Below, piece by piece: positions 20,486 through 34,861 of a stretch of DNA of 64,000 nt (position 1 is its first letter; each line of letters starts with the position of its first letter). The stretch comes from Neotamlana nanhaiensis (GTDB lineage Bacteria > Bacteroidota > Bacteroidia > Flavobacteriales > Flavobacteriaceae), in assembly GCF_000943555.1 (NCBI RefSeq), contig NZ_JTDV01000002.1, forward strand, positions 360,831 to 424,830. Reading direction: 5' to 3'. The translations under genes and the position numbers were made by a program. The notes beneath the pieces were generated by a model. The model saw nothing but the letters and a program-made list of their open reading frames with translations. It did no database searches and was not told the origin of the DNA.

Positions 20486-23293
20486 TTGAAGCTAAATAAA
20501 CTGTTAAGTTTTGTTGCTGTAATATATTGTGTTTTAATAGTTACAGCACAAGAACGTCCACCCATTCAAATTTTTACACCGTCGCAGTATGGTGCCGAAA
20601 ATCAAAATTGGGGTATCTCCCAAGGTGAAAACAAGTCTATTTTTATTGCTAATAATAAAGGACTTTTAGAGTTTAATGGCGCAAAATGGCGGGTTTATGC
20701 CTCTCCAAATAAAACTATTTTGCGCTCGGTAGCAGTTATAAAAAATAAGATTTATACAGGTAGTTTTCGAGAATTTGGTGTTTGGCAACGCGATAATATT
20801 GGGAATTTAAATTATACATCGTTATCGCAGCAATTAAATATTCCTTTTTTAGAAGATGAAGAATTATGGAATATTATTGGAATAGACGATTATATTCTGT
20901 TTCAATCGCTTAATCGAATTTACATTTACAATACTAAAACCGAAACGTATTCCATAATAAATTCAACCGAAACTATTTATCGTTTGTTTAAGGTAAACGA
21001 TTCCATTTATTTTCAAAAATTAACAAATGGTTTGTTCGAAATTGTAAATGGTAAAGCGCGTTTAGTATCAAATCATCCTATTATTCAACAAAATTTAGTT
21101 GTAAATATATTTATTCAACATAATAAACTTTTGCTTTTAACCGAGGATAATGGTTTTTATAGTTTACAAAATAATCAGCTCGATAAATGGGAAATTCCAG
21201 CAAATACTTCACTAGATAATTTACGTATTTATAGCAGTAAGCAATTGCAGGATGGTAGTTTTGTTTTAGGAAGTATTTCCGATGGTATTTTACTATTATC
21301 TGCTAAAGGCGATATTGTTTATAAAATTAATCAGAAATCTGGAATAAGCAATAACACAGTTTTAGCGGTTTTTGAAGATGTAGATAATAACATTTGGTTG
21401 GGTTTAGAAAATGGCATTAACTGCATAAATATTAAATCGCCGTTTAGTATTTATAACGATACCGAAGGCCATATTGGAGCCGTAAATACTTCGGTATTAC
21501 ATGAGGGCAATTTATATATTGGTACCAATCAAGGCTTATTTTATAAAGCTTATAATAGTAAGGACGAGTTTAAATTTATATCGGGAACTCAAGGTGCAGT
21601 TTGGTGTTTAAATAAAATTGATAATGAGTTATTTTGCGGGCATAATTCTGGTACGTTTTTGGTGAATAATAATAAAGCTAAGTTGGTAGCAAATGTTCAA
21701 GGTACTTGGAATATAAAAAAACTTAACGATCGTTTACTTTTACAAGGAAATTATACAGGACTTTACCTGTTAGAAAAAACTAACAATTCCTGGAAACTTC
21801 GAAATAAAATAAAAGGTTTTAATATTTCTAGCCGCTATTTCGAAGTGTTAAATAACAATAACGTTTTTGTAAGCCACGAGTATAAAGGTGTTTTTAATAT
21901 TAGTTTAAATAAGGAATTAACCGAAGCGGTAGCTATTACGCAAGAAGCCATTGAAACCGGATTAAAAACCAGCTTAATTAAGTACAAAAACAATATTTAT
22001 TATTCGCAAATAAGTGGTGTTTATAAGTATAATAAAGCTAATAAAACTTTTGATCGCGATTCTGTTTTTAGTCAGCTTTTTAATAAAAACGAATATATTT
22101 CAGGAAAATTAATTGTAGATAGCCAAACCAATAAACTATGGGCAACATCGGTTTCTGGTTTAACTTACATGGCTACCAGTAAGCTTAGTAATACGCCAAA
22201 ATTTACACATATTGCTTTACCAAGTTTGTCAAGAAACGATGTGGCTGGTTACGAAAATATAGCGCATTTAGAGGGTAATAAATTTCTTTATGGAAATTCT
22301 ACAGGTTACATTATTTTTAATTTACAGCAGGTTAAACAAAAGCCATTTAAAGTACATTTAAATCAGGTTGTTAATAGTGCATTTAAAAATACAAATCATG
22401 CTTTAATTTATGTAAATACCCTTAAAAATGAAACCTTCGATTATGCTAATAATAATATTAGGTTCACCTTTAGTGTGCCCGAATATCAAAAATTTGCACT
22501 AGCCGAGTACCAATACCAATTAGAAGGGATTCAAAACACTTGGAGTAATTGGACTAAAAAACCTGAAGAATTTTTTGAGAATTTACCACATGGTAATTAT
22601 ACTTTTAAAGTACGTGCCAAAATAGGAAGTACTTTGTCTACAAATACCGAAACCTTTAGTTTTAGTATTAAACGACCTTGGTATATTTCAAATGCTATGA
22701 TGGGTTGTTATGGCTTGATGGTACTGTTATTTTCTGTGTTTATGCATAATCAGTATAAACGAAGTTTTAAAAAGCAACAAAAGAAACTTATTATTAAAAA
22801 GCAACGTGAATTAGAGTTAAAAGAGCTCGAAAATAAAGCGCAATTAACGCGGTTTAATAATGATAAGTTGCGTCAAGACATCGAAAATAAAAACCGAGAG
22901 TTGGGTATTTCTACCATGAACTTAATTAAGAAAAATGAGTTTTTAAATAATTTGAAAAAGGAATTACAAAACGTAAACGATGTTAAATCTATTAAACGTG
23001 TCATAAATATTATTGATAAGAATATTAATAATACCGACGATTGGCATCTCTTTGAAGAAGCATTTAATAATGCCGATAAAGACTTCCTAAAAAAAATAAA
23101 GCAACTGCATCCAGAGCTTACTTCAAACGATTTACGTTTATGTGCCTATTTACGTTTAAATTTAGCTTCAAAAGAAATTGCTCCACTTTTAAATATTTCT
23201 CCTCGAAGTGTCGAAGTAAAACGTTACCGATTGCGAAAAAAGATGAATTTAAAGCACGAAGCCAGTTTAACCGATTATATTTTAAGTGTATAG
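20486..23293 (+). CDS. Membrane-anchored glycan-sensing regulator (propeller, Y_Y_Y, LuxR-type HTH)
   Basis: A 935-residue one-component regulator heading the PUL. Signal peptide to about residue 22. Two-component-regulator propeller repeats fill the sensor (for example VFEDVDNNIWLGLENGI). A Y_Y_Y (triple tyrosine) domain lies near 640-725, then one membrane helix at about 731-752. A cytoplasmic coiled coil (KKQQKKLIIKKQRELELKELE) leads to a C-terminal LuxR/GerE-like HTH (LTSNDLRLCAYLRLNLASKEIAPLLNISPRSVEVKRYRLRKKM). Unlike hybrid two-component systems it has no kinase or receiver domain. Start codon TTG, chosen because the signal peptide begins there. It likely activates susCD when it senses oligosaccharide in the periplasm. 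Confidence 0.85.
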   Translation: MKLNKLLSFVAVIYCVLIVTAQERPPIQIFTPSQYGAENQNWGISQGENKSIFIANNKGLLEFNGAKWRVYASPNKTILRSVAVIKNKIYTGSFREFGVWQRDNIGNLNYTSLSQQLNIPFLEDEELWNIIGIDDYILFQSLNRIYIYNTKTETYSIINSTETIYRLFKVNDSIYFQKLTNGLFEIVNGKARLVSNHPIIQQNLVVNIFIQHNKLLLLTEDNGFYSLQNNQLDKWEIPANTSLDNLRIYSSKQLQDGSFVLGSISDGILLLSAKGDIVYKINQKSGISNNTVLAVFEDVDNNIWLGLENGINCINIKSPFSIYNDTEGHIGAVNTSVLHEGNLYIGTNQGLFYKAYNSKDEFKFISGTQGAVWCLNKIDNELFCGHNSGTFLVNNNKAKLVANVQGTWNIKKLNDRLLLQGNYTGLYLLEKTNNSWKLRNKIKGFNISSRYFEVLNNNNVFVSHEYKGVFNISLNKELTEAVAITQEAIETGLKTSLIKYKNNIYYSQISGVYKYNKANKTFDRDSVFSQLFNKNEYISGKLIVDSQTNKLWATSVSGLTYMATSKLSNTPKFTHIALPSLSRNDVAGYENIAHLEGNKFLYGNSTGYIIFNLQQVKQKPFKVHLNQVVNSAFKNTNHALIYVNTLKNETFDYANNNIRFTFSVPEYQKFALAEYQYQLEGIQNTWSNWTKKPEEFFENLPHGNYTFKVRAKIGSTLSTNTETFSFSIKRPWYISNAMMGCYGLMVLLFSVFMHNQYKRSFKKQQKKLIIKKQRELELKELENKAQLTRFNNDKLRQDIENKNRELGISTMNLIKKNEFLNNLKKELQNVNDVKSIKRVINIIDKNINNTDDWHLFEEAFNNADKDFLKKIKQLHPELTSNDLRLCAYLRLNLASKEIAPLLNISPRSVEVKRYRLRKKMNLKHEASLTDYILSV

Positions 23294-23520: not shown

Positions 23521-26500
23521 ATGAGACACACGCTAATTAAATGTTTAGCCTTATTCTTATGTATATGGTCGCATGCACAAACTACTAGTGTAAGTGGTAT
23601 TGTTCAAGATGAAACTGGATTTCCTATTCCAGGTGCCAATGTTATTATTAAAGGAACAACCACTGGAACGACCACCGATTTTGATGGTAACTTTACGCTA
23701 AATAAGGTTAATACTGGTGCAACCATAACCGTAAGTTATATAGGTTATATAACAAAAGATGTGGTTATTACTTCAAACCAAAACCTAACTATTACATTAC
23801 AAGAAGATGTATCGCAACTCGACGAAGTGGTTGTAGTTGGTTATGGTACACAAAAGAAAAAAGATGTTACGGGAGCGGTATCTACAGTATCGGCCGAAAC
23901 ACTTGAAGATTTACGCCCAATAGATGCAGCGCAAGCCTTACAAGGTACCTCTGCCGGGGTTTCGGTTACAGCACCTTCGGGTTCTCCAGGTGGTAATTTT
24001 AATATATTAATTCGCGGCGTTAGTTCTAACCTTAATAATGAACCATTGGTAATTATTGATGGGTATAAAGGTGAGTTAAACTCTATCAACCCAAGCGATA
24101 TTGAGACTTTTACCATTTTAAAAGATGCTCAAGCGGCTATTTATGGTATTCAAGGAGCCAATGGCGTGGTATTAGTTACTACAAAATCGGGTAGAAATAA
24201 TGCCAAAGCAAAAATTAATTACACAGGTTATACTGGTATGCAACAAACCACCAGAAAATTACCTTATTTAAATGCCACCGAATATGCTTTAATTTTAAAC
24301 GAAAGCTACGCGGCCAACGGGCAAGCATTACCATTCCCAAATGTTAGTGGTTTGGGAGCTGGAATAGATTGGCAAGACCAACTTTTTGAAACCGCACCAA
24401 TTACAAACCATAGTTTATCGGTTACTGGTGGAGGCGAAAAAAGCACCTATTATTTTGGTGGTTCTATTTTAGAACAAGATGGTATTATTGCGAGTGAAAA
24501 ATCAAACTTTCAACGTGCTAATGCCAAGATTAAATTAAGTTTTGATGTTTCTGAGAAATTAAAATTTACAACTTCGGCCAACTATTTTGTTAACAATCGT
24601 GGAACTATAGGCGAAAATGCCTTAGGAACACCATTATTCAACGCTTTAAATTATGCACCAACTTATAGTTTAAATCAAGAAGATACTAGTGGTTTTTTAG
24701 GTAACGAAGTGGTAAATCCATTATCGCAAATAGCGAATACCTTTAACGATTATAAAGGAAGCTCAATTGAAGGTACTTTTCAAGCCGATTACAAACCTAT
24801 TGAAGGACTAACCATTACATCACGTATTGGTTTAAAAGCCTATAACGATACTGGTAAAACTTTTGCACCTATTGTAAATTACGGTTCGGGTAAAGTGTTT
24901 AATACCGATAGAAGTAGTGTAACACAAACTAAAAACACGAACAATTCCTATACTTGGGATACTTTTGCTACATACAATAAAGTATTTGACGAAAATCACA
25001 ATACCTCATTTACATTGGGTACGAGTGCGCAACGTGCTTGGGGCGATAATTTACAAGCTACTGGTTTTGATGTGCCTAATAATTCTTGGGAATTTGCCGA
25101 TATTTCTTTGGCCAATGGTTTAAGCGAAGCAAAATCTACAAGTTCATATATTTACGATACGCGTTTATCGTCATACTTTGGAAGGCTACAGTACGACTAC
25201 AATAGCAAATATTTACTTTCTGCAATGATTCGTCGCGATGGTTCGTCTGACTTTGCGCCTGAAAACCGAATCGATTATTTCTATTCAGCTACTGCAGGTT
25301 GGAAAATTTCCGATGAAAACTTTTTAAAAGATTCAAACGTTATAAACTTTTTAAAACTTAGAGCTAGCTACGGTACTTTAGGAAATAATGTAGGTCAAGA
25401 TTTATACCGTGCCTTATTAAGTGGTGAAGCTACTTATGTTTTAAATGGTGCTTTGGTTACTGGAACAGCAAATGGTAGAATTCCTAATCCCGATGCTAAA
25501 TGGGAAACAGCAGAAAAGTTAGATATTGGTTTAGATTTAAACTTATTTGATAATAAATTTGAAATTGTAGCCGATTATTTTGTTGAAGATAGAAACGACT
25601 TATTAATTAGTGGTTTTCCAATCTCAGGAATTATAGGTGCCGGTGCTCCTGGTGCTGGGTTACCTACGGTTAATGCTGGTACAACCAGAAATAAAGGTAT
25701 CGAGTTATTTTTAAATTATAAACAATTTATTGCAGACGATGTTTCGTTTAACATCAGTTATAATGTAACAAAAATAGAGAGTGAAGTTACTGCAATAAAT
25801 GGTGGTAATATTCCAGAAGGTGGCTCGTTTAGTGTTGGGCAACCTGCTATTGCTAGAATGGAAATTGGCCAACCGATAGGCTATTTCTACGGTTTAAAAA
25901 CCTATGGTATTTTTCAAAATCAAGCTGAAGTGGATGCACATCCTTCTCAATCTGGTTTAGGTGCCGATGCTGCTCCTGGCGATATTCGTTTTGTTGACGT
26001 TAATGGCGATGGCGAAATTACTATCGACGATAGAACCTATTTAGGTAAACCCATAGCTGATTACATTATGGGACTTAACTTAAGTTTCAATTATAAAAAC
26101 CTCGATTTTGGTGCTTATATGTATGCCGAATTAGGTAAAGAAACCGTGCGTAACTACGAGCGCGATCAGCCTAATGTAAATCGTTTAAATCTGTATTTAA
26201 ATAGATGGACAGGCGAGGGCACAAGCAATACTGTACCTCGTGCTACAACTGCAGGTACTTCAAATAAGTTATTTTCCGATTTTTATGTTGAAGATTCTTC
26301 ATTCTTAAGAATTCAAAACATTCAATTAGGCTATTCGTTACCTAATGCTGTAATCGAAAAATTAGGTATGAGCAAATGTCGTTTTTACGCTTCAGTAAAC
26401 AACGCATTCACATTTACAAAATACAATGGTTACGATCCTGCTGCAACCAATGGCAATGCAATTGGTGGTAGTATCGATTATGGGTTTTATCCTATTTCCA

Positions 26501-26535
26501 GACAGTTTATTTTAGGTTTAAACTTATCAATTTAA
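23521..26535 (+). CDS. SusC/RagA TonB-dependent outer-membrane transporter
   Basis: A 1004-residue outer-membrane channel of the PUL. Signal peptide to about residue 20. A carboxypeptidase-regulatory-like domain follows (TTSVSGIVQDETGFPIPGAN... TTTDFDGNFTL, about 21-100). A TonB-box-like DEVVVVGYGTQKKKDVTGAVS and plug domain come next, with the SusC signature NEPLVIIDGYKG. The 22-strand barrel fills the rest and ends in FILGLNLSI. Together with the SusD lipoprotein 10 bp downstream it imports oligosaccharides, here inferred to be beta-1,3-gluco-oligosaccharides, into the periplasm using TonB energy. Confidence 0.96.
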   Translation: MRHTLIKCLALFLCIWSHAQTTSVSGIVQDETGFPIPGANVIIKGTTTGTTTDFDGNFTLNKVNTGATITVSYIGYITKDVVITSNQNLTITLQEDVSQLDEVVVVGYGTQKKKDVTGAVSTVSAETLEDLRPIDAAQALQGTSAGVSVTAPSGSPGGNFNILIRGVSSNLNNEPLVIIDGYKGELNSINPSDIETFTILKDAQAAIYGIQGANGVVLVTTKSGRNNAKAKINYTGYTGMQQTTRKLPYLNATEYALILNESYAANGQALPFPNVSGLGAGIDWQDQLFETAPITNHSLSVTGGGEKSTYYFGGSILEQDGIIASEKSNFQRANAKIKLSFDVSEKLKFTTSANYFVNNRGTIGENALGTPLFNALNYAPTYSLNQEDTSGFLGNEVVNPLSQIANTFNDYKGSSIEGTFQADYKPIEGLTITSRIGLKAYNDTGKTFAPIVNYGSGKVFNTDRSSVTQTKNTNNSYTWDTFATYNKVFDENHNTSFTLGTSAQRAWGDNLQATGFDVPNNSWEFADISLANGLSEAKSTSSYIYDTRLSSYFGRLQYDYNSKYLLSAMIRRDGSSDFAPENRIDYFYSATAGWKISDENFLKDSNVINFLKLRASYGTLGNNVGQDLYRALLSGEATYVLNGALVTGTANGRIPNPDAKWETAEKLDIGLDLNLFDNKFEIVADYFVEDRNDLLISGFPISGIIGAGAPGAGLPTVNAGTTRNKGIELFLNYKQFIADDVSFNISYNVTKIESEVTAINGGNIPEGGSFSVGQPAIARMEIGQPIGYFYGLKTYGIFQNQAEVDAHPSQSGLGADAAPGDIRFVDVNGDGEITIDDRTYLGKPIADYIMGLNLSFNYKNLDFGAYMYAELGKETVRNYERDQPNVNRLNLYLNRWTGEGTSNTVPRATTAGTSNKLFSDFYVEDSSFLRIQNIQLGYSLPNAVIEKLGMSKCRFYASVNNAFTFTKYNGYDPAATNGNAIGGSIDYGFYPISRQFILGLNLSI

Positions 26536-26545
26536 TACAAGCATC

Positions 26546-28024
26546 ATGAAAAAATATATAAATAAAACAGTTAAAAGTATACTTGTTGTTTTAGTGCTTT
26601 TTGGTGCTAATTCTTGCGGCGATTCTTATTTAGAAGATGTTGATCGGTACAGTATAGATTCCGAAAATTATTTTAATTCCGAAGACGATTATTACCAAGC
26701 GCTTATTGGGGCTTACGATTTGTTACAAGCAACCTATGTTAATGTTATTTTAGGTGAAATAGCTTCCGATAATACCTTATGCGGTGGCGAAAGTGCAACC
26801 GATGTAGTTGGCTGGCAACAAGTTGATGATATGATTCATACACCCGTAAATAGTGAACTTAGAAAACTTTGGGATTGGATGTACGCCGGTGTAAATCGTG
26901 CTAATTTTATTCTTGAATTTCAAGATAAAACCGATTTTGAAGGTAGAGAAATTATTATTGGTGAAGCCCGTTTTTTAAGAGCGTATTATTATTTCGAGTT
27001 AGTAAAATGGTTTGGACCAATTCCATTAAAGGAAACGCGTTTTCAGTTAGGTGATGAAACCAGTTTACCACGTGCTTCGGTAAGCGATGTGTATGCTTTA
27101 ATTGAAGCCGATTTAAAATATGCAGTCGATAATTTAAATTATACGGCACCAGAAGTTGGGCGTGTTACCAAAGGTGCCGCACAAGCGCTTTTAGGAAAAG
27201 CCTATTTATACCAAGATAAATTTTCTGAAGCAGCTACGGTTTTAAACAATTTAATTGTAAACGGCCCTTACGATTTGGTAAGCGATTACGATACTATTTT
27301 TGAAAATGACAATGAAAACAACATAGAATCTGTATTTGAAGTACAATATTCTGATGCTGAAGGTGCTGGTTTTGAATGTTTACAATGTAGCGAAGGTAAT
27401 GTGGCAGTCGGTTTTAACGGTATTCGTAACTATAATGGACCATTATTCGATTCTGGATTCAGCTTTAATGTTCCTACTCAAGAAGTCGTTGATGCTTTTG
27501 AAGCTGATGATTTACGTAAAGATGTAGCCATTTTAGATATTGAAAATTGGGCTGCTTTAAATGGTGCTACTTTTGGTACAGGTTATGAACACACAGGGTA
27601 TTACAACAGAAAATATATTGCGCGTAAAGGCGATTTAAATACTGGAGATCAAAACCTTACAAATCCAAATAATTATAGGTCAATTCGTTTTGCCGATGTA
27701 TTGTTAATGGCAGCCGAAGCTTATAACCGCGGCAATATTGACGATACTAAAGCACAACAATTTTTAAATCGTGTTCGTGCCAGAGCTTTTGGTGATACAA
27801 ATCACAATGTTACTTCAACGGGAGTAGCCTTAACCGATGCTATTGCTAACGAACGTCGTGTAGAATTAGTAGGCGAGGGGCATCGTTTTTTCGATTTAGT
27901 TAGAACGGGTAAAGCTGCACAAGAAATTGATGGGTTTACCGCTGGTAAAAATGAAGTATTCCCTATTCCTTTTGAAGAAATTCAGTTTTCAAATGGCAAC
28001 TGGGAACAAAATCCAAACTACTAA
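26546..28024 (+). CDS. SusD/RagB glycan-binding lipoprotein
   Basis: A 492-residue surface lipoprotein (lipobox ANSC, about C24), the lid partner of SusC. SusD-family marks: SEDDYYQALIGAYDLLQA, EARFLRAYYYFELVKWFGPIPL (TPR-type helices), RFADVLLMAAEAYNRGN, NERRVELVGEGHRFFDLVRTGKA and a terminal FPIPFEEIQFSNGNWEQNPNY. It binds the oligosaccharide at the cell surface and closes over the SusC pore. It is cotranscribed with susC and the downstream glycan-binding lipoprotein (11 bp gap). Confidence 0.96.
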   Translation: MKKYINKTVKSILVVLVLFGANSCGDSYLEDVDRYSIDSENYFNSEDDYYQALIGAYDLLQATYVNVILGEIASDNTLCGGESATDVVGWQQVDDMIHTPVNSELRKLWDWMYAGVNRANFILEFQDKTDFEGREIIIGEARFLRAYYYFELVKWFGPIPLKETRFQLGDETSLPRASVSDVYALIEADLKYAVDNLNYTAPEVGRVTKGAAQALLGKAYLYQDKFSEAATVLNNLIVNGPYDLVSDYDTIFENDNENNIESVFEVQYSDAEGAGFECLQCSEGNVAVGFNGIRNYNGPLFDSGFSFNVPTQEVVDAFEADDLRKDVAILDIENWAALNGATFGTGYEHTGYYNRKYIARKGDLNTGDQNLTNPNNYRSIRFADVLLMAAEAYNRGNIDDTKAQQFLNRVRARAFGDTNHNVTSTGVALTDAIANERRVELVGEGHRFFDLVRTGKAAQEIDGFTAGKNEVFPIPFEEIQFSNGNWEQNPNY

Positions 28025-28035
28025 AAAATAAGACT

Positions 28036-30141
28036 ATGAATTCATTAAAACATATATTAAAATTTTGTCTGATTGCATTATTCGTAGTGAGTTGTGTACA
28101 GGAAGACGATAATACCGATTTTGTAGATAGTATCGCTGCACCATCAAACATTTCGGCAGCTGTTAGTGTTACACAAGATAATACGGGACTTGTAACTATT
28201 ACACCTCTTGGTGAAGGTGCGGTTACTTTTACAATTAATTATGGCGATGGTTCTGGAGAATCAGAAGCTATAAAACCAGGACAAAGCACGCAACATACGT
28301 ACAGCGAAGGTAGTTATGATGCTACCATTACAGCAACAGGTTTAAACGGACTTAAAACAACGGCAACACAACCTATTTTAGTGTCGTTTAAAGCGCCTGA
28401 AAATTTATTAGTTACTATTGAAAATGATGCTGCGGTTTCTAAACAAGTTAACGTAAAAGCAAGTGCCGATTATGCATTGTCTTACGAAGTGTATTTTGGC
28501 GAACCAGGTAACGATGAGCCAGTTGCTGGAAACAATGGAGATACAGTATCTTACACCTATCAAGAAGCAGGAACGTATACCATTCGTGTGGTATCAATGA
28601 GTGCTGCTATTGCAACTACAGAGTATTCTGAGGAATTTGAGGTTACCGCAATTCTTCAGCCTTTAAATGCAGCACCAACGCCAATGTCGCGTAATCCTGA
28701 AGATGTTATTTCAATTTACAGCGGTGCATACACGAATGTTGAAGGTACTAACTATTTCCCAGATTGGGGACAAGCAGGACAAGGTAGCGGATGGGCAGAA
28801 TTCGATTTAAATGGCGATACCATGTTACAATACATTAATTTAAGTTACCAAGGTATTGCATTAGCAGATGGTACTTCAGTTGATGTTTCAGGTATGGAAT
28901 ATCTTCATCTTGATGTTTGGATGGCCGAAGGTATAAACACTATCGAAACCTCACTTATTAACAATGCCGGTGGTACAGTTACCGAAGCTCCTGTAGTTTC
29001 AGCATTAACAGCAGGCGAGTGGACAAGCATTGAAATCCCAATTTCAGATTATACCGATCAAGGACTTACCGTTACCGAAATTTTCCAATTAAAATTCGTA
29101 GGCGATCCTTGGGCTTCAGGTACAGTGTTTATAGATAATATTTATTTCTATAAAGCGCCTTCAAATCCTTCAACAGGATTAGCTGGTACTTGGAAACTGG
29201 CACAAGAAGTTGGAGCTTTAGGTGTTGGTCCTGCCGTTGGAGATATTAGTTGGTGGAATTGCGATGCCGATTGTGTCGATTTAAGAGCATGTTATTACGA
29301 TGATACCTATGTGTTTGGTACCGATGGTTCATTCACAAACAATTTAGGTGGTGAAACTTGGACAGAAGGTTGGCAAGGTGGCGGCGATTCTTGTGGTACG
29401 CCAATAGCACCGCACGATGGTTCTAACGCGGCAACTTATGTGTACGATGAAGCTGCTGGTACAGTAACCTTAAACGGTACAGGTGCATATATAGGTCTTT
29501 CAAAAGCCGTTAATGGTAGCGAATTAAGTAATCCTGCCGATACACCTGCTTCGGTAACTTATAATATCAATTTTATAGATCCTAATACCATTTCGGTTTA
29601 TGTAGAAGCTGGCGATGGCGTATTCTGGCAGTACAAACTGGTTAGAGATGGCGCTGTAGTTTCTCCAGTAGCTGGTACTTGGAAACTTGCCGAAGAAGCT
29701 GGAGCTTTAGGTGTTGGTCCTGCCGTTGGAGACACAAGTTGGTGGAATTGTGATGCCGATTGTGTTGGTTTAAGAGCATGTTATTACGACGATACTTACG
29801 TTTTTGGTACCGATGGTTCATTTGCAAATAATTTAGGTAGCGAAACTTGGACAGAAGGTTGGCAAGGTGGTGGAGATTCTTGTGGTACACCAATAGCACC
29901 ACATGATGGTTCTAATCCTGCAACGTATACGTACGATGCTGCTGCAGGCACCCTAACTGTAAATGGTACAGGTTCATTTATTGGCTTAGCGAAAGCGGTT
30001 AATGGCAGCGAACTAAGTAATCCAGCTGATACACCTGCTGCAATTACTTATAACGTCATGTTTATAGATAATAATACGATGTCGGTTTATGTAGAAGCTG
30101 GCGATGGCGTGTTCTGGCAATACAAACTAGTAAGAATTTAA
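28036..30141 (+). CDS. Surface glycan-binding lipoprotein: PKD, CBM-like and duplicated Cys domains
   Basis: A 701-residue lipoprotein (lipobox VVSC, about C20). Two PKD-like Ig domains (residues ~35-205; NYGDGSG, HTYSEGSYDATITA) are followed by a jelly-roll domain (~210-375) resembling carbohydrate-binding modules. Then come two tandem copies of a 163-residue domain starting at A383 and A546. Each has GTWKL, LGVGPAVGD, SWWNCDADC, ACYYDDTYVFGTDGSF, GGGDSCGTPIAPHDGS and a final GDGVFWQYKLVR. No catalytic residues are recognised. Its place after SusD matches SusE/F-like surface glycan-binding proteins. A similar domain occurs in the next gene. Confidence 0.8.
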   Translation: MNSLKHILKFCLIALFVVSCVQEDDNTDFVDSIAAPSNISAAVSVTQDNTGLVTITPLGEGAVTFTINYGDGSGESEAIKPGQSTQHTYSEGSYDATITATGLNGLKTTATQPILVSFKAPENLLVTIENDAAVSKQVNVKASADYALSYEVYFGEPGNDEPVAGNNGDTVSYTYQEAGTYTIRVVSMSAAIATTEYSEEFEVTAILQPLNAAPTPMSRNPEDVISIYSGAYTNVEGTNYFPDWGQAGQGSGWAEFDLNGDTMLQYINLSYQGIALADGTSVDVSGMEYLHLDVWMAEGINTIETSLINNAGGTVTEAPVVSALTAGEWTSIEIPISDYTDQGLTVTEIFQLKFVGDPWASGTVFIDNIYFYKAPSNPSTGLAGTWKLAQEVGALGVGPAVGDISWWNCDADCVDLRACYYDDTYVFGTDGSFTNNLGGETWTEGWQGGGDSCGTPIAPHDGSNAATYVYDEAAGTVTLNGTGAYIGLSKAVNGSELSNPADTPASVTYNINFIDPNTISVYVEAGDGVFWQYKLVRDGAVVSPVAGTWKLAEEAGALGVGPAVGDTSWWNCDADCVGLRACYYDDTYVFGTDGSFANNLGSETWTEGWQGGGDSCGTPIAPHDGSNPATYTYDAAAGTLTVNGTGSFIGLAKAVNGSELSNPADTPAAITYNVMFIDNNTMSVYVEAGDGVFWQYKLVRI
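29182..30138 (+). repeat. In-gene tandem duplication of a 489-bp domain module
   Basis: Copy 1 (29182-29670) and copy 2 (29671-30138) encode the same Cys-containing domain in frame. They remain similar at DNA level over long blocks (for example the shared block ending GGTGTTGGTCCTGCCGTTGG), so the duplication looks fairly recent or homogenised. Confidence 0.85.
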
Positions 30142-30154
30142 AAATCTAAGAAAA

Positions 30155-31813
30155 ATGAAATATTTAAAATATAATATAGCAATCATCCTTTCATTGGTAT
30201 TACTAGTTTTAAGTTGTCAAGAAGATGATGCTACAATTGGAGAAATTATAGCGCCAAATACGGTTGAAATTTCGGCTGAAATTGTTGGTGCAGATACTGA
30301 TAATCCAGATGGTGATGGTAGCGGATTTGTAAACTTAATTGCTACCGCAAATAATGCGGTAAGTTATAAATTCGATTTTGGTGATGGTTTAAGCGAAGTA
30401 GCTCCTTCGGGCGAGGTAATGCATCGTTTTACAAAAGTTGGTGTAAACACTTATACCGTGGTGGTAAACGCTGTTGGTACAGGTGGTTTATCGTCTAGTA
30501 CGGCTATTGAAGTAACCGTTAGAAGTGATTTTGATGATCCTGAAGCAAAACAATTATTAAGCGGTGGTTCTAGCAGAACATGGTATTTAGCGGCTGCCGA
30601 TAGTGAGCATTTAGGTGTTGGTCCAGGAAATGCAAGTATCGATGCAGAAGGCTATTGGTATCCAAAATGGTATGCGGCACAACCTTTTGAGAAATGTGGT
30701 GTAGAAATTAGTGCTTGTTTTTGTGATGATGAGCTTACGTTTAATTTAGATGCAAATGGTCAATTAACTTACGAGTTAAACAACAACGGATTCACTTTTT
30801 TCAATGCCGGACATCAATCTGTAATTGGTGAAAATGCCGGAGAAGATGCTTGTTTTGCTTTCGATACTTCAGGAACAAGTATTGTGTCATTAGCACCAAC
30901 ATCAACCGATTGGTCTTTATTACCAGATCCAGATTTTGAGGTACGTGGTACAGTTATGAATTTTTCAAACGATGCTTTTATGAGCTATTACATTGGTTCA
31001 TCAACTTACGAAATTATTTCCATCACCGATACCGAATTACATGTACGTACCTTAGATGGAAACGATCCAGGATTAGCATGGTATTTAAAATTCCAAACAA
31101 GTCCGGCCGAAGATACTTTCCAAAGTGTATTTAACACCTTAGTATGGTCTGATGAGTTTGATACTCCAGGAGCTCCAGACGCTGCAAAATGGACCTATGA
31201 TTTAGGTGCAGGCGGCTGGGGAAATAACGAAGTACAAACCTATACCAATAATGCCGAAAATGTTATTGTTGAAGATGGCATGTTAAAAATTACAGCTGTG
31301 GCAGATGGTTCTGGAGGTTATACATCGGCGCGATTAAAATCTCAAGATTTACAAGAGTTCACTTACGGTCGTGTTGAGGTGCGAGCTAAGTTACCATCTG
31401 CACAAGGTACATGGCCTGCAATTTGGATGCTTGGTGCCAATTTTGATGTTGTAGACTGGCCAGCTTGTGGAGAAATAGATATTATGGAGCAAACAGGTTG
31501 GGATAAATCTATAACATCGGCAGCTTTACATATGCCTGGTAATTCTGGTGGTGATGCCATTTTTAATGAAACACCAAATGCGACCTCGACTTCCGAATTT
31601 CATAATTATTCAGTAGAGTGGACGTCAACCGCTATTAAAATTTTGGTTGACGATACGGTATTTTTAAGTTGGGCGAACACGCCAGATACAGCCTTTAATG
31701 CCGATTTCTTTATAATTTTAAATGTCGCTATGGGCGGAACATTAGGAGGAACAATCGATCCTGCATTTATTCAAGATACTATGGAAATTGAATATGTAAG
31801 AGTTTATCAGTAA
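30155..31813 (+). CDS. GH16 beta-glucanase (laminarinase-type) lipoprotein with PKD and Cys domain
   Basis: A 552-residue surface endo-glucanase (lipobox LSC, about C21). Order: a PKD-like domain (~35-125), a domain with LGVGP (153-157) and ACFCDDELTF that resembles the duplicated module of the preceding protein (~130-325), then a GH16 catalytic domain (~330-552). The active-site motif GEIDIME gives nucleophile E440, helper D442 and acid/base E445. WPAIWMLG and the terminal MEIEYVRVYQ are family-typical. It probably cuts beta-1,3-glucan at the cell surface before SusCD import. GH16 also includes other specificities, so the substrate is inferred from context. Confidence 0.93.
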   Translation: MKYLKYNIAIILSLVLLVLSCQEDDATIGEIIAPNTVEISAEIVGADTDNPDGDGSGFVNLIATANNAVSYKFDFGDGLSEVAPSGEVMHRFTKVGVNTYTVVVNAVGTGGLSSSTAIEVTVRSDFDDPEAKQLLSGGSSRTWYLAAADSEHLGVGPGNASIDAEGYWYPKWYAAQPFEKCGVEISACFCDDELTFNLDANGQLTYELNNNGFTFFNAGHQSVIGENAGEDACFAFDTSGTSIVSLAPTSTDWSLLPDPDFEVRGTVMNFSNDAFMSYYIGSSTYEIISITDTELHVRTLDGNDPGLAWYLKFQTSPAEDTFQSVFNTLVWSDEFDTPGAPDAAKWTYDLGAGGWGNNEVQTYTNNAENVIVEDGMLKITAVADGSGGYTSARLKSQDLQEFTYGRVEVRAKLPSAQGTWPAIWMLGANFDVVDWPACGEIDIMEQTGWDKSITSAALHMPGNSGGDAIFNETPNATSTSEFHNYSVEWTSTAIKILVDDTVFLSWANTPDTAFNADFFIILNVAMGGTLGGTIDPAFIQDTMEIEYVRVYQ

Positions 31814-31816
31814 AAC

Positions 31817-34096
31817 ATGAAAACAGCAAAACTAATAGGGCTAGTTTTGCTGCTTGTTACCTTGGGTTGCAAGCAGCAAGACCAAGCAAACCCTACAAAT
31901 ATTTCAGAGGATATAAGCATAGAAAATAAGGTTGATTCCTTACTTTCTATAATGACGCTTGAAGAAAAAATTGGGCAAATGAACCAGTATAACGGGTTTT
32001 GGGACGTTACTGGACCAACCCCAGAAAATGGGGATGCAGCCAAGAAATATGAACATTTACGCAAAGGCTATGTGGGTTCCATGCTTAATGTTACAGGTGT
32101 AGAAAATGTACGCACAGTACAAAAAATTGCCGTTGAAGAAACGCGTTTAGGTATTCCGTTAATTATCGGTTTCGATGTTATTCATGGCTATAAAACGTTG
32201 AGTCCAATACCACTGGCAGAAGCAGCAAGTTGGGATTTACAAGCTATTAAAAAATCTGCTGAAGTTGCTGCCTTAGAAGCCTCAGCGGCAGGTATAAATT
32301 GGACGTTTGCACCGATGGTGGATATTTCTCGTGATGCCCGTTGGGGACGTGTAATGGAAGGTGCTGGCGAAGATACGTTCTTAGGTTCTAAAATCGCTGT
32401 GGCAAGAGTTGAAGGTTTTCAAGGCGACGATTTAAGCACACACAACACTATAGCGGCTTGCGCTAAACATTGGGCTGGTTATGGTTTTGCCGAATCTGGT
32501 AAAGATTACAACACCGTAGATGTGGGTACATCAACTTTAAATAACATCATTTTTCCGCCGTTTAAAGCAACGGTTGATGCTGGCGTGCGCACGTTTATGA
32601 ATTCGTTTAACGAACTCAATGGTATTCCTGCTACAGGAAATGCTTATTTACAACGCTATGTTTTAAAAGGGAGTTGGGAATTTGATGGTTTTGTGGTGTC
32701 TGATTGGGGTTCAATGTCAGAAATGATTGCTCATGGTTACGCCGAAAATAAAAAGCATGCCGCAGAATTATCGGCAAATGCTGGATCGGATATGGATATG
32801 GAATCCTATGCTTATGTTGCAGAATTAGCAAATTTAGTAAACGAAGGCAAAGTTTCCGAAGCACACATTAACGATGCCGTTAAGCGTATTTTACGCGTAA
32901 AATTTGAGTTAGGATTATTCGACGATCCCTATAAATACTGCGATGCTTCTCGCGAAAAAGAAGTTACAGGAAGTCAAGAAATTCATGATGCCGTTTTAGA
33001 AATGGCAAAAAAATCTATTGTGCTTTTAAAAAATGAAAACAATACACTTCCGCTTAAAAAAGAAGGACAAAAAATAGCTTTAATAGGCGCATTGGCAGAC
33101 GATAAAACGAGTCCGTTAGGAAGCTGGCGTATTGGTGCGGAAGATGGTACAGCCATTTCGGTTTTAGAAGGCATGCAACAATACAAGAACAATCAATTAA
33201 CCTTTGCAAAAGGCGCGAATGTGATTACTGGTGGTGCGTCTTTTCCGTTTGAATTAAATATCAATACAAACGATAAATCGGAATTTTCTAAAGCCATAAA
33301 CACTGCAAAAAATGCCGATGTTGTAGTTATGGTTCTAGGGGAACACGCATTTCAAAGTGGTGAGGCTAGAAGTAGAGCGCTATTAGGTTTACCAGGTGTT
33401 CAGCAAGAATTGTTAGAAGCCGTTTACGCCGTAAATAAAAACATTGTTTTGGTATTGAATAATGGTCGTCCGTTAACTATTCCGTGGGCAGATGCACATA
33501 TTCCTGCTATTGTTGAAGCGTGGCATTTAGGCACACAAAGCGGTAATGCCATTGCGCAAGTGTTGTATGGTGATTATAACCCAAGTGGAAAATTACCTAT
33601 GACGTTTCCAAGAAGCGTAGGACAACTTCCTATTTATTACAATTTTAAAAATACAGGAAGACCATCAGCCAACGAACCGAATAGTGTGTTTTGGTCGCAT
33701 TATACCGACGAAAGTAATACACCGCTGTATCCGTTTGGTCATGGGTTAAGTTACACAACTTTCCAATATTCTAATTTACATGTAAATGTTGTAAATACGA
33801 ATACCGTTGAGGTCTCTTTCAGCTTAAAAAATACAGGAAGCGCAAAAGGAAAAGAGGTTGCACAGCTTTATATCCGCGATTTGTTTGCGAGTGTCACACG
33901 TCCTGTGAAAGAACTAAAAGGTTTTGAGTTAGTGGCGTTAGAATCTGGAGAGACCAAACAAATTACCATAACCTTAACGGAAGATGAATTAGGATTTTAC
34001 AATAATACTGGTGAGTTTGTTGTAGAACCAGGTGATTTCATGGTTTTTGTTGGCGGAAGTTCGAATACTGTTTTAGAAAAAAAATTTAAATTATAG
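31817..34096 (+). CDS. bglX: GH3 beta-glucosidase, lipoprotein (BglX-like)
   Basis: A 759-residue retaining beta-glucosidase that releases glucose from imported gluco-oligosaccharides, likely in the periplasm. The lipoprotein signal ends at C18 (LGCKQQ). The GH3 N-terminal TIM-barrel carries nucleophile D296 in FVVSDWGSM and the substrate-binding KHWAGYG. The alpha/beta sandwich has the GEHAFQSGEARSR loop. A fibronectin III-like C-terminal domain ends the protein (VSFSLKNTGSAKGKEVAQLYI... GDFMVFVGGSS). It starts 3 bp after the GH16 stop and 3 bp before the second GH16, so it is in the same transcript. Confidence 0.95.
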   Translation: MKTAKLIGLVLLLVTLGCKQQDQANPTNISEDISIENKVDSLLSIMTLEEKIGQMNQYNGFWDVTGPTPENGDAAKKYEHLRKGYVGSMLNVTGVENVRTVQKIAVEETRLGIPLIIGFDVIHGYKTLSPIPLAEAASWDLQAIKKSAEVAALEASAAGINWTFAPMVDISRDARWGRVMEGAGEDTFLGSKIAVARVEGFQGDDLSTHNTIAACAKHWAGYGFAESGKDYNTVDVGTSTLNNIIFPPFKATVDAGVRTFMNSFNELNGIPATGNAYLQRYVLKGSWEFDGFVVSDWGSMSEMIAHGYAENKKHAAELSANAGSDMDMESYAYVAELANLVNEGKVSEAHINDAVKRILRVKFELGLFDDPYKYCDASREKEVTGSQEIHDAVLEMAKKSIVLLKNENNTLPLKKEGQKIALIGALADDKTSPLGSWRIGAEDGTAISVLEGMQQYKNNQLTFAKGANVITGGASFPFELNINTNDKSEFSKAINTAKNADVVVMVLGEHAFQSGEARSRALLGLPGVQQELLEAVYAVNKNIVLVLNNGRPLTIPWADAHIPAIVEAWHLGTQSGNAIAQVLYGDYNPSGKLPMTFPRSVGQLPIYYNFKNTGRPSANEPNSVFWSHYTDESNTPLYPFGHGLSYTTFQYSNLHVNVVNTNTVEVSFSLKNTGSAKGKEVAQLYIRDLFASVTRPVKELKGFELVALESGETKQITITLTEDELGFYNNTGEFVVEPGDFMVFVGGSSNTVLEKKFKL

Positions 34097-34099
34097 TTT

Positions 34100-34861
34100 A
34101 TGAAACCGACTGTTTTTTTATGGCTTGTGTTGTTGTTTTTTTCTTGTAAAGAAGAAGGCAAAAAACTCATTTGGGAAGAAAATTTTGATGGTAACGCACT
34201 CAATGAAGCCCACTGGAATTTCGAGCTCGGTAATGGTTGCCCTAACCTTTGTGGTTGGGGTAATAACGAACGCCAAATATATACAAAAACCAATCATAAG
34301 TTAGAAAATGGTATGCTAACCATTACGGCGAACTTGAAAGATTCGGTGTATACATCAACTCGAATTACGACCAAGAATAAATTTCAGTTTAAATATGGCA
34401 CTATAGAAGCCCGAGCGAAATTACCCGTTGGTCAAGGTTTGTGGCCTGCTTTTTGGATGTTAGGTAGCAATATTGATACCGTTGGATGGCCTAAATGTGG
34501 CGAAATAGATATTTTAGAATATGTTGGTAAAGAACCAAGTATGGTGTTTACTTCACTACACACGCAAGACAGTCACGGAGAAACTATCAATACTAAAAAG
34601 ACAAAAATTGAAGGTATAGAAGACGGTTTTCATGTGTATAAAGCGCATTGGACAGAGACAAAAATTGAATTTTTTATAGATGATAAATTACTGTACACGT
34701 TCGCCCCAGAAGCGTTAAACGATGAAACGATTTGGCCTTTTAACCAACCGTTTTACATCCTAGTAAATTTAGCTATTGGTGGCAATTTTGGAGGTCCAGA
34801 GGTAGATGACACAGTGTTTCCGCAGCAGTATATTATAGATTATATAAAGGTTTACAAATAA
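34100..34861 (+). CDS. GH16 beta-glucanase, compact lipoprotein
   Basis: A 253-residue single-domain endo-beta-1,3-glucanase type GH16. Lipobox FFSC (C16). Catalytic motif GEIDILE with E135, D137 and E140. WWGNNERQIYT-like (GWGNNERQ), WPAFWMLG and FYILVNLAIGGNFGG are typical of laminarinases. Compared with the larger GH16 upstream it lacks accessory domains, suggesting a division of labour on intact polymer versus shorter chains (inference). It is the last gene of the PUL; a strong hairpin lies 61 bp downstream. Confidence 0.93.
   Translation: MKPTVFLWLVLLFFSCKEEGKKLIWEENFDGNALNEAHWNFELGNGCPNLCGWGNNERQIYTKTNHKLENGMLTITANLKDSVYTSTRITTKNKFQFKYGTIEARAKLPVGQGLWPAFWMLGSNIDTVGWPKCGEIDILEYVGKEPSMVFTSLHTQDSHGETINTKKTKIEGIEDGFHVYKAHWTETKIEFFIDDKLLYTFAPEALNDETIWPFNQPFYILVNLAIGGNFGGPEVDDTVFPQQYIIDYIKVYK

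Follow-up and report, generated by a model that had tools for sequence, protein, structure and literature searches.

What is the domain shared by two neighbouring lipoproteins of Neotamlana nanhaiensis, one a predicted surface glycan-binding protein and the other an enzyme of glycoside hydrolase family 16 (GH16), and what would it bind? Both are encoded in the window analysed here, a stretch of 64,000 nucleotides (assembly GCF_000943555.1, contig NZ_JTDV01000002.1, positions 360,831 to 424,830, forward strand), and all coordinates are positions in this window. The source bacterium is probably marine. A sequence-only reading of the DNA had seen two tandem 163-residue copies of a Cys-containing LGVGP domain in the first protein and a third, diverged copy in the second, and suggested that the domain, which it did not recognise, could be a glycan-binding module confined to such loci. 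Instead, all three copies very probably belong to the family of lipocalin-like β-glucan-binding barrels represented by SGBP-B of Bacteroides fluxus, and would serve the capture and cutting of laminarin, a β-1,3-glucan that is a major marine carbon store, in a probable laminarin utilisation locus.

Three copies of one domain

The tandem copies begin with AGTWKLA at residues 383 and 546 of the lipoprotein, which gives the 163-residue period that had been read, and include LGVGP at residues 395 and 558, respectively. The two share 87% identity over 155 residues (85.4% over 465 bases of DNA). The third LGVGP lies at residues 153–157 of the GH16 protein, also in the position described, but pairwise comparison connects copy 3 weakly to copies 1 and 2 (BLASTP E 0.003 and 0.015). 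Values of this order could reflect a convergent resemblance, produced by short motif matches between unrelated domains.

Relatives (given L numbers) were gathered, among them 35 loci from named genomes, the nearest being that of Tamlana sedimentorum (89% in the domain). Among 149 genomes of the same family, 30 had matches to the domain, with the N. nanhaiensis genome counted in. Alignment rows were hand-picked from 92 + 54 references to give three sets, consisting of 62 tandem-type copies (A1), 37 GH16-type copies (A2) and nine SGBP-type copies (A3). The last set was taken from nine one-copy proteins of ~300 aa from other genomes and included no window sequence. Residues of the tandem type are numbered by copy as in A1, and those of the GH16 type as in A2.

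Comparison of the profiles using hhalign joined A1 to A2 with a probability of 97.9% (E 4.2e-13), A1 to A3 with 98.0% (E 1.8e-13), and A2 to A3 with 100% (E 3.6e-49). In the controls, 30 column-shuffled versions each of A2 and A3 (60 in total) gave probabilities of at most 1.1% and 1.9%, and the reversed alignments 0.5% and 0.8%, respectively. In addition, when run on the N. nanhaiensis genome, the A3 profile recovered all three window copies (E 1.9e-18, 4.2e-9, and 4.2e-8). The profile comparisons thus join the copies where pairwise BLASTP is weak, and the three copies are real and homologous. Chance or convergent resemblance was rejected on the shuffled and reversed controls; refuted also by the independent A3 profile and by the best solved structure common to the models of both types (see below), it retains practically no probability. 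The likeness noticed by eye in the sequence-only reading is one that pairwise search barely supports.

No further copy was found by profile searches of the genome beyond the window at E up to 0.001, and neither Pfam nor NCBIfam has a family above its cut-off over the three copies. Pfam gave no family on copy 1 at E up to 1, whereas Lipocalin_4 scored 12.9 bits on copy 3 against a cut-off of 22.4, and 13 of the 62 tandem-type copies matched it weakly (E up to 1, the lowest being 0.0085).

Relationship to SGBP-B of Bacteroides fluxus

Copy 3 together with the PKD domain ahead of it matched B. fluxus SGBP-B (PDB entry 7kv5) in a phmmer search at E 2.1e-15, and the A3 profile matched 7kv5 at E 6e-14 inside the domain alone. 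According to their PDB titles, 7kv7 is a complex with laminaritriose and 7kv6 a complex with mixed-linkage glucotriose.

AlphaFold2 models were obtained for copy 1 (predicted local distance difference test, pLDDT, 96.5; predicted template modelling score, pTM, 0.90) and copy 3 (pLDDT 92.2, pTM 0.88). In Foldseek searches at E < 0.001, three chains only were returned for copy 1 and four chains only for copy 3, all of them B. fluxus SGBP-B. Structure comparison by VIA aligned copy 1 with 7kv5 and 7kv6 at Z 13.8 (135 residues, 2.8 Å; next protein 8.6) and copy 3 with B. fluxus SGBP-B at Z 20.5 (157 residues, 2.0 Å; next protein 8.4). Behind SGBP-B, most of the proteins listed for the two models were lipocalin-like barrels, with Z values of a size that VIA flags as common. 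For example, small Bacteroides lipocalin-like and similar barrels (4gzv, 4qrl, 4iab, 5byp, and 4zgf) gave Z 7.4–8.6 with copy 1, a level that VIA calls common for unrelated folds. An unknown fold was rejected, as both programs gave B. fluxus SGBP-B as the best solved match of both models. Judged from the models, copies 1 and 3 have the fold of 7kv5 residues ~125–290, and copy 2 would share it, given its identity to copy 1. Sequence homology to 7kv5 is direct for copy 3, taken with its PKD domain.

These results bear on several points of the sequence-only reading. The lipocalin-like barrel that it proposed agrees with the structure comparison, while its alternative, a jelly-roll, finds no support among the best matches of either model. 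A lack of structural similarity between copy 3 and the duplicated copies, which would have counted against the reading, was not seen, as the models of copies 1 and 3 share their best solved match. It was correct that no named carbohydrate-binding module (CBM) family covers the domain, in that no Pfam family scores above cut-off; however, the domain is recognisable as a relative of B. fluxus SGBP-B. The clear match to this characterised protein (7kv5/7kv6/7kv7), obtained by sequence, profile, and models, does not leave room for an unrecognised, locus-specific module.

Alignments with B. fluxus SGBP-B further revealed a shared N-terminal T-W, [LF]GVGP with paired aromatics behind it, an [AG]-[FY]-x-G strand, and a final W-aromatic. 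Besides the fold, the position of SGBP-B in a SusC/SusD locus is shared, and copy 3 has a PKD domain directly ahead of the barrel. In contrast, copies 1 and 2 are in tandem with no PKD directly ahead, have invariant C37/C71 and lack the second aromatic pair, and copy 3 is fused to GH16. Two Cys of B. fluxus SGBP-B stand near the aligned place in the 7kv5 alignment. In the B. fluxus structure study by Tamura and others from 2021, the barrel domain is reported to have a shallow binding canyon, and the barrel, not the first module, to carry the ligand site. Whole BfSGBP-B binds laminarins and barley mixed-linkage glucan, and yeast β-glucan weakly, according to PMC7157763. The domain has therefore already been characterised in a relative, and the tandem subtype is a diverged variant with a putative binding face.

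For the GH16 lipoprotein, the same reading has been published for a relative, a Maribacter forsetii GH16_3 enzyme described in 2024, the N-terminus of which is called laminarin-binding from homology to BfSGBP-B in PMC11345257. As described there, the Maribacter enzyme is likewise a lipoprotein with a PKD domain, an SGBP-B-type laminarin-binding domain and a GH16 laminarinase, but it is about 700 aa long and its GH16 domain has an insertion that the authors also relate to BfSGBP-B (PMC11345257). The window GH16 domain, unlike that enzyme, aligns over residues 324–552 without an insertion. A literature search, limited to open-access papers and hence weak, found no published account of the tandem subtype, and a search on CBM102 to CBM107 gave no result, so that no CAZy number is assigned to the domain.

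Low sequence similarity makes SGBP-B proteins difficult to annotate. With a profile of the domain, many lipoproteins of marine laminarin loci that are now labelled 'PKD-domain' or hypothetical could be given a name. 'PKD-domain containing' proteins are named in figure legends on the expression of laminarin loci in Formosa (PMC6246565).

Conserved residues of the tandem and GH16 types

The cysteines, counted as a shared feature in the sequence-only reading, differ between types. C37 and C71 are present in all 62 tandem-type copies, and C27 and C31 occur together in 31 of these copies, the other 31 lacking the two; this co-occurrence suggests two disulphides, C37–C71 and C27–C31. In the GH16 type, the pair 56/101 was found in 27 of 37 copies and an additional pair 49/58 in 11, and eight copies have no Cys at all, as do all nine SGBP-type copies. 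Cysteine was thus rejected as a hallmark of the family and is a trait of subtypes. The F-x-x-D-G pattern, also described as shared, is strict in copies 1 and 2, whereas copy 3 reads F-x-x-D-A-N-G.

Assignment of the tandem copies to a laminarin-binding barrel has several points against it. Neither the whole lipoprotein sequence nor the A1 profile gave a PDB match for the tandem type, and copies 1 and 2 therefore reach SGBP-B only via intermediates and structure. The part of the tandem profile beyond residue 55 reached probabilities of only 39% and 31% by itself, which places most of the signal in the N-terminal third; past it the sequence is strongly diverged, and the case for homology there comes from the structure models. 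The GH16-type residues 146–147 are aromatic in 37/37 copies, and the equivalent pair is aromatic in 9/9 SGBP-type copies, but in the hhalign alignment the same pair is L/I then A/P/S in 62/62 tandem-type copies, followed in each by K. With this aromatic pair gone, the tandem copies may have a different binding face or none, and the tandem type may use a site other than that of SGBP-B.

The same residues bear on a possible change of ligand. The tandem copies could have kept fold and family but turned, via a new W-x-E-x-W-Q site, to another feature, such as β-1,6 branching, one end of the chain (for instance that with mannitol) or a glucan of another kind, with the ancestral β-1,3 site kept by the GH16 copy. 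The W-x-E-x-W-Q motif is near-invariant in the tandem type (W60 60/62, E62 62/62, W64 60/62, and Q65 62/62), as are K108 (62/62) and E114 (61/62), and this conservation, together with the lost aromatic pair and the weak signal past residue 55, speaks for such a change. However, other aromatics common to the solved family are retained, namely W24 (58/62 copies, and aromatic in the remaining four) and W149 (62/62), which have counterparts of like kind in the GH16 and SGBP types. The tandem copies also occur in a like locus, in near-fixed gene order with GH16 (see below). A changed ligand is therefore considered doubtful, though it deserves to be kept in mind. A related possibility, judged slightly less probable still, is that the tandem copies form a separate branch of SGBP-B barrels with a relocated site, in which W-x-E-x-W-Q replaces the tyrosine-type pair and reads a laminarin feature different from that read by the laminarinase-fused copy. 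Were this so, the surface protein and the enzyme would recognise one polysaccharide in two ways. The tandem subtype offers a concrete case for asking whether, within one locus, a single fold has come to read β-glucans in two ways.

A probable laminarin utilisation locus

The genes around the three copies are listed in Table 1, where lipoboxes were assigned by pattern and enzyme families by Pfam. All are on the same strand, in the order regulator, SusC, SusD, tandem lipoprotein, PKD-domain-GH16 lipoprotein, GH3, and second GH16.

Table 1. Genes and domains of the N. nanhaiensis locus
Feature	Position	Strand	Basis
Regulator preceding susC; domains Reg_prop, Y_Y_Y and GerE (LuxR-type)	20486..23293	+	Pfam
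SusC-like TonB-dependent transporter	23521..26535	+	Pfam
SusD-like protein	26546..28024	+	Pfam; best solved match 6gcz, E 3.1e-68
Tandem lipoprotein of 701 aa, predicted to bind glycan at the surface; lipobox VVSC followed by PKD-type repeats, middle region, two tandem copies	28036..30141	+	Open reading frame (ORF), Pfam, pattern
Copy 1, tandem type, residues 383–537	29182..29646	+	Pairwise identity, AlphaFold2 model
Copy 2, tandem type, residues 546–701 (reaches C-terminus)	29671..30138	+	87% identity with copy 1
Lipoprotein of 552 aa with lipobox VLSC, a PKD domain, copy 3 and a catalytic domain of GH16	30155..31813	+	ORF, Pfam, pattern
PKD domain of GH16 protein, about residues 66–121	30350..30517	+	PF00801 at 66–116, 24.6 bits (cut-off 23.5)
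Copy 3, GH16 type, residues 133–314	30551..31096	+	phmmer to 7kv5, AlphaFold2 model
GH16 catalytic domain, residues 324–552	31124..31810	+	Pfam, PDB sequence match
GH3 lipoprotein, probable β-glucosidase	31817..34096	+	Pfam; lipobox TLGC
Second GH16, 253 aa, without the domain	34100..34861	+	Best solved match ULam111 (5wut), E 2.3e-116

The GH16 lipoprotein includes EIDIME at residue 440, which fits E-x-D-x-x-E, the catalytic motif of GH16 endo-1,3-β-glucanases, and the best solved matches of its catalytic domain are the endo-1,3-β-glucanases 4bq1 (E 1.9e-65) and 4bow (E 1e-64). Motif and nearest solved homologues thus predict an endo-1,3-β-glucanase (laminarinase). The solved structures nearest to the SusD-like protein are, in order, 6gcz, which we take to be a laminarin/pustulan-binding SusD from a marine strain, then 9sje and 9sjj, and then 7kv4, 7kv2, and 7kv1. 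A SusC/SusD pair combined with a laminarinase-type GH16 and a GH3 enzyme points to a laminarin utilisation locus, and the glycan-binding role that had been predicted for the domain is a likely one in such a β-glucan locus. The Pfam hits of the regulator include no kinase domain, unlike classical hybrid two-component sensors.

A division of labour can be proposed from the gene content. The tandem lipoprotein, which follows SusC and SusD in the SGBP-B position, would collect laminarin at the cell surface, close to these two proteins, with two barrels, presumably acting together, on a lipidated stalk. The GH16 lipoprotein would combine a PKD and barrel, arranged as in SGBP-B, with an endo-laminarinase, and through this fusion the enzyme would bind the chain it cuts, with its own barrel holding the chain while GH16 cuts. 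The oligosaccharide products would then enter through SusC/SusD and be finished by GH3. BtSGBP-B and BuSGBP-B of gut 1,3-glucan loci have tandem CBM-like modules on linkers and are not known to contain this barrel. Their gene position and role correspond to those proposed for the window lipoprotein (PMC7157763).

In the tandem lipoprotein, PKD_4 was found at residues 61–112 above the Pfam cut-off and a second PKD at residues 144–187 slightly under it (23.2 against 23.5 bits). A middle region of ~170 residues (28648–29160, residues about 205–375) separates the PKDs from copy 1. This region has no Pfam family and its best PDB matches are at E 0.43 and 0.47, and lacking either assignment it may be an undescribed carbohydrate-binding module. 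By eye, a similar stretch is present in L054 and, behind the copies, in L031.

If the middle region does bind, the tandem copies could be structural spacers that extend the lipoprotein, with binding left to this region and SusD; SGBP-B proteins elsewhere often carry spacer modules. However, the W, E, Q, and K positions are strongly conserved in the 62 tandem-type copies, and three short proteins of 454–466 aa (L049, L052, and L053) have only ~135–140 residues ahead of two copies. Moreover, single-copy proteins adjoin GH16 genes in L035 and L056. A spacer role is thus improbable, and laminarin capture by the barrels is preferred.

Relatives and gene neighbourhood

Gene order was compared in those 33 of the 35 loci that include downstream sequence, by taking the first ORF (150 aa or longer) that follows on the same strand. 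In 31 of the 33, this ORF carries the domain and GH16, the latter recognised by motif in 28 and by Pfam in the other three (L011, L023, and L025). Two of the 31 (L010 and L030) had one copy and not two counted by the script in the upstream lipoprotein. The exceptions are L031, in which a regulator with Y_Y_Y and Reg_prop follows, and L035, in which GH16 lacks the domain.

The domain was found in 179 ORFs, or 149 once contained repeats were removed. These comprise 49 with two tandem-type copies, one with three, one in which both types occur once, and two groups of 49 single-copy ORFs, the first with a GH16 motif and the second with none found; locus ends truncate some of the ORFs, and in three or more the motif is missing although Pfam recognises GH16. 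Among 395 genomes sampled evenly from the same phylum, 25 were matched by the A1 profile and 50 by the A3 profile. In a FastTree tree built from 195 of the 196 copies, the closest relative of copy 1 was the copy 2 beside it in the same protein for 19 of the 49 pairs, including that of the window, and a copy 1 from a different protein for 28 (other in two). This pattern, from a quick tree, would fit recurrent events within proteins, either re-duplication or conversion.

At L048:1972-2874, L051:119-1018, and L054:609-1478, the tandem lipoprotein is followed by a one-copy protein of ~300 aa that lacks GH16, the copy in the last being of the tandem type. The window GH16 protein looks as if such a protein had been fused to a laminarinase. 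A description of these ~300-aa relatives as PKD plus one copy was dropped, as Pfam PKD scored above cut-off in none of ten (nine of A3 and L054).

Other arrangements were observed in single loci. Three tandem copies instead of two are present at L026:5029-6471, from a Cellulophaga metagenome-assembled genome (MAG), and L074:1492-2973 (same protein as L106) is a hybrid in which a GH16/SGBP-type copy is followed by a tandem-type copy. The protein with tandem copies at L031:5905-7809 has a C-terminal tail for type IX secretion (Por_Secre_tail, E 1.2e-14), and is therefore probably secreted or otherwise attached. A lipoprotein-like protein with two tandem-type copies at L034:4987-6450 adjoins oxaloacetate decarboxylase genes in a MAG labelled Porticoccaceae, presumably gammaproteobacterial, for which horizontal transfer or misbinning are possible explanations. 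At L049:2113-3033 and L053:1-936, a protein with a GH2_C TIM-barrel match, and not GH16, adjoins the short tandem-copy lipoproteins, hinting at a different β-glucan or enzyme chemistry.

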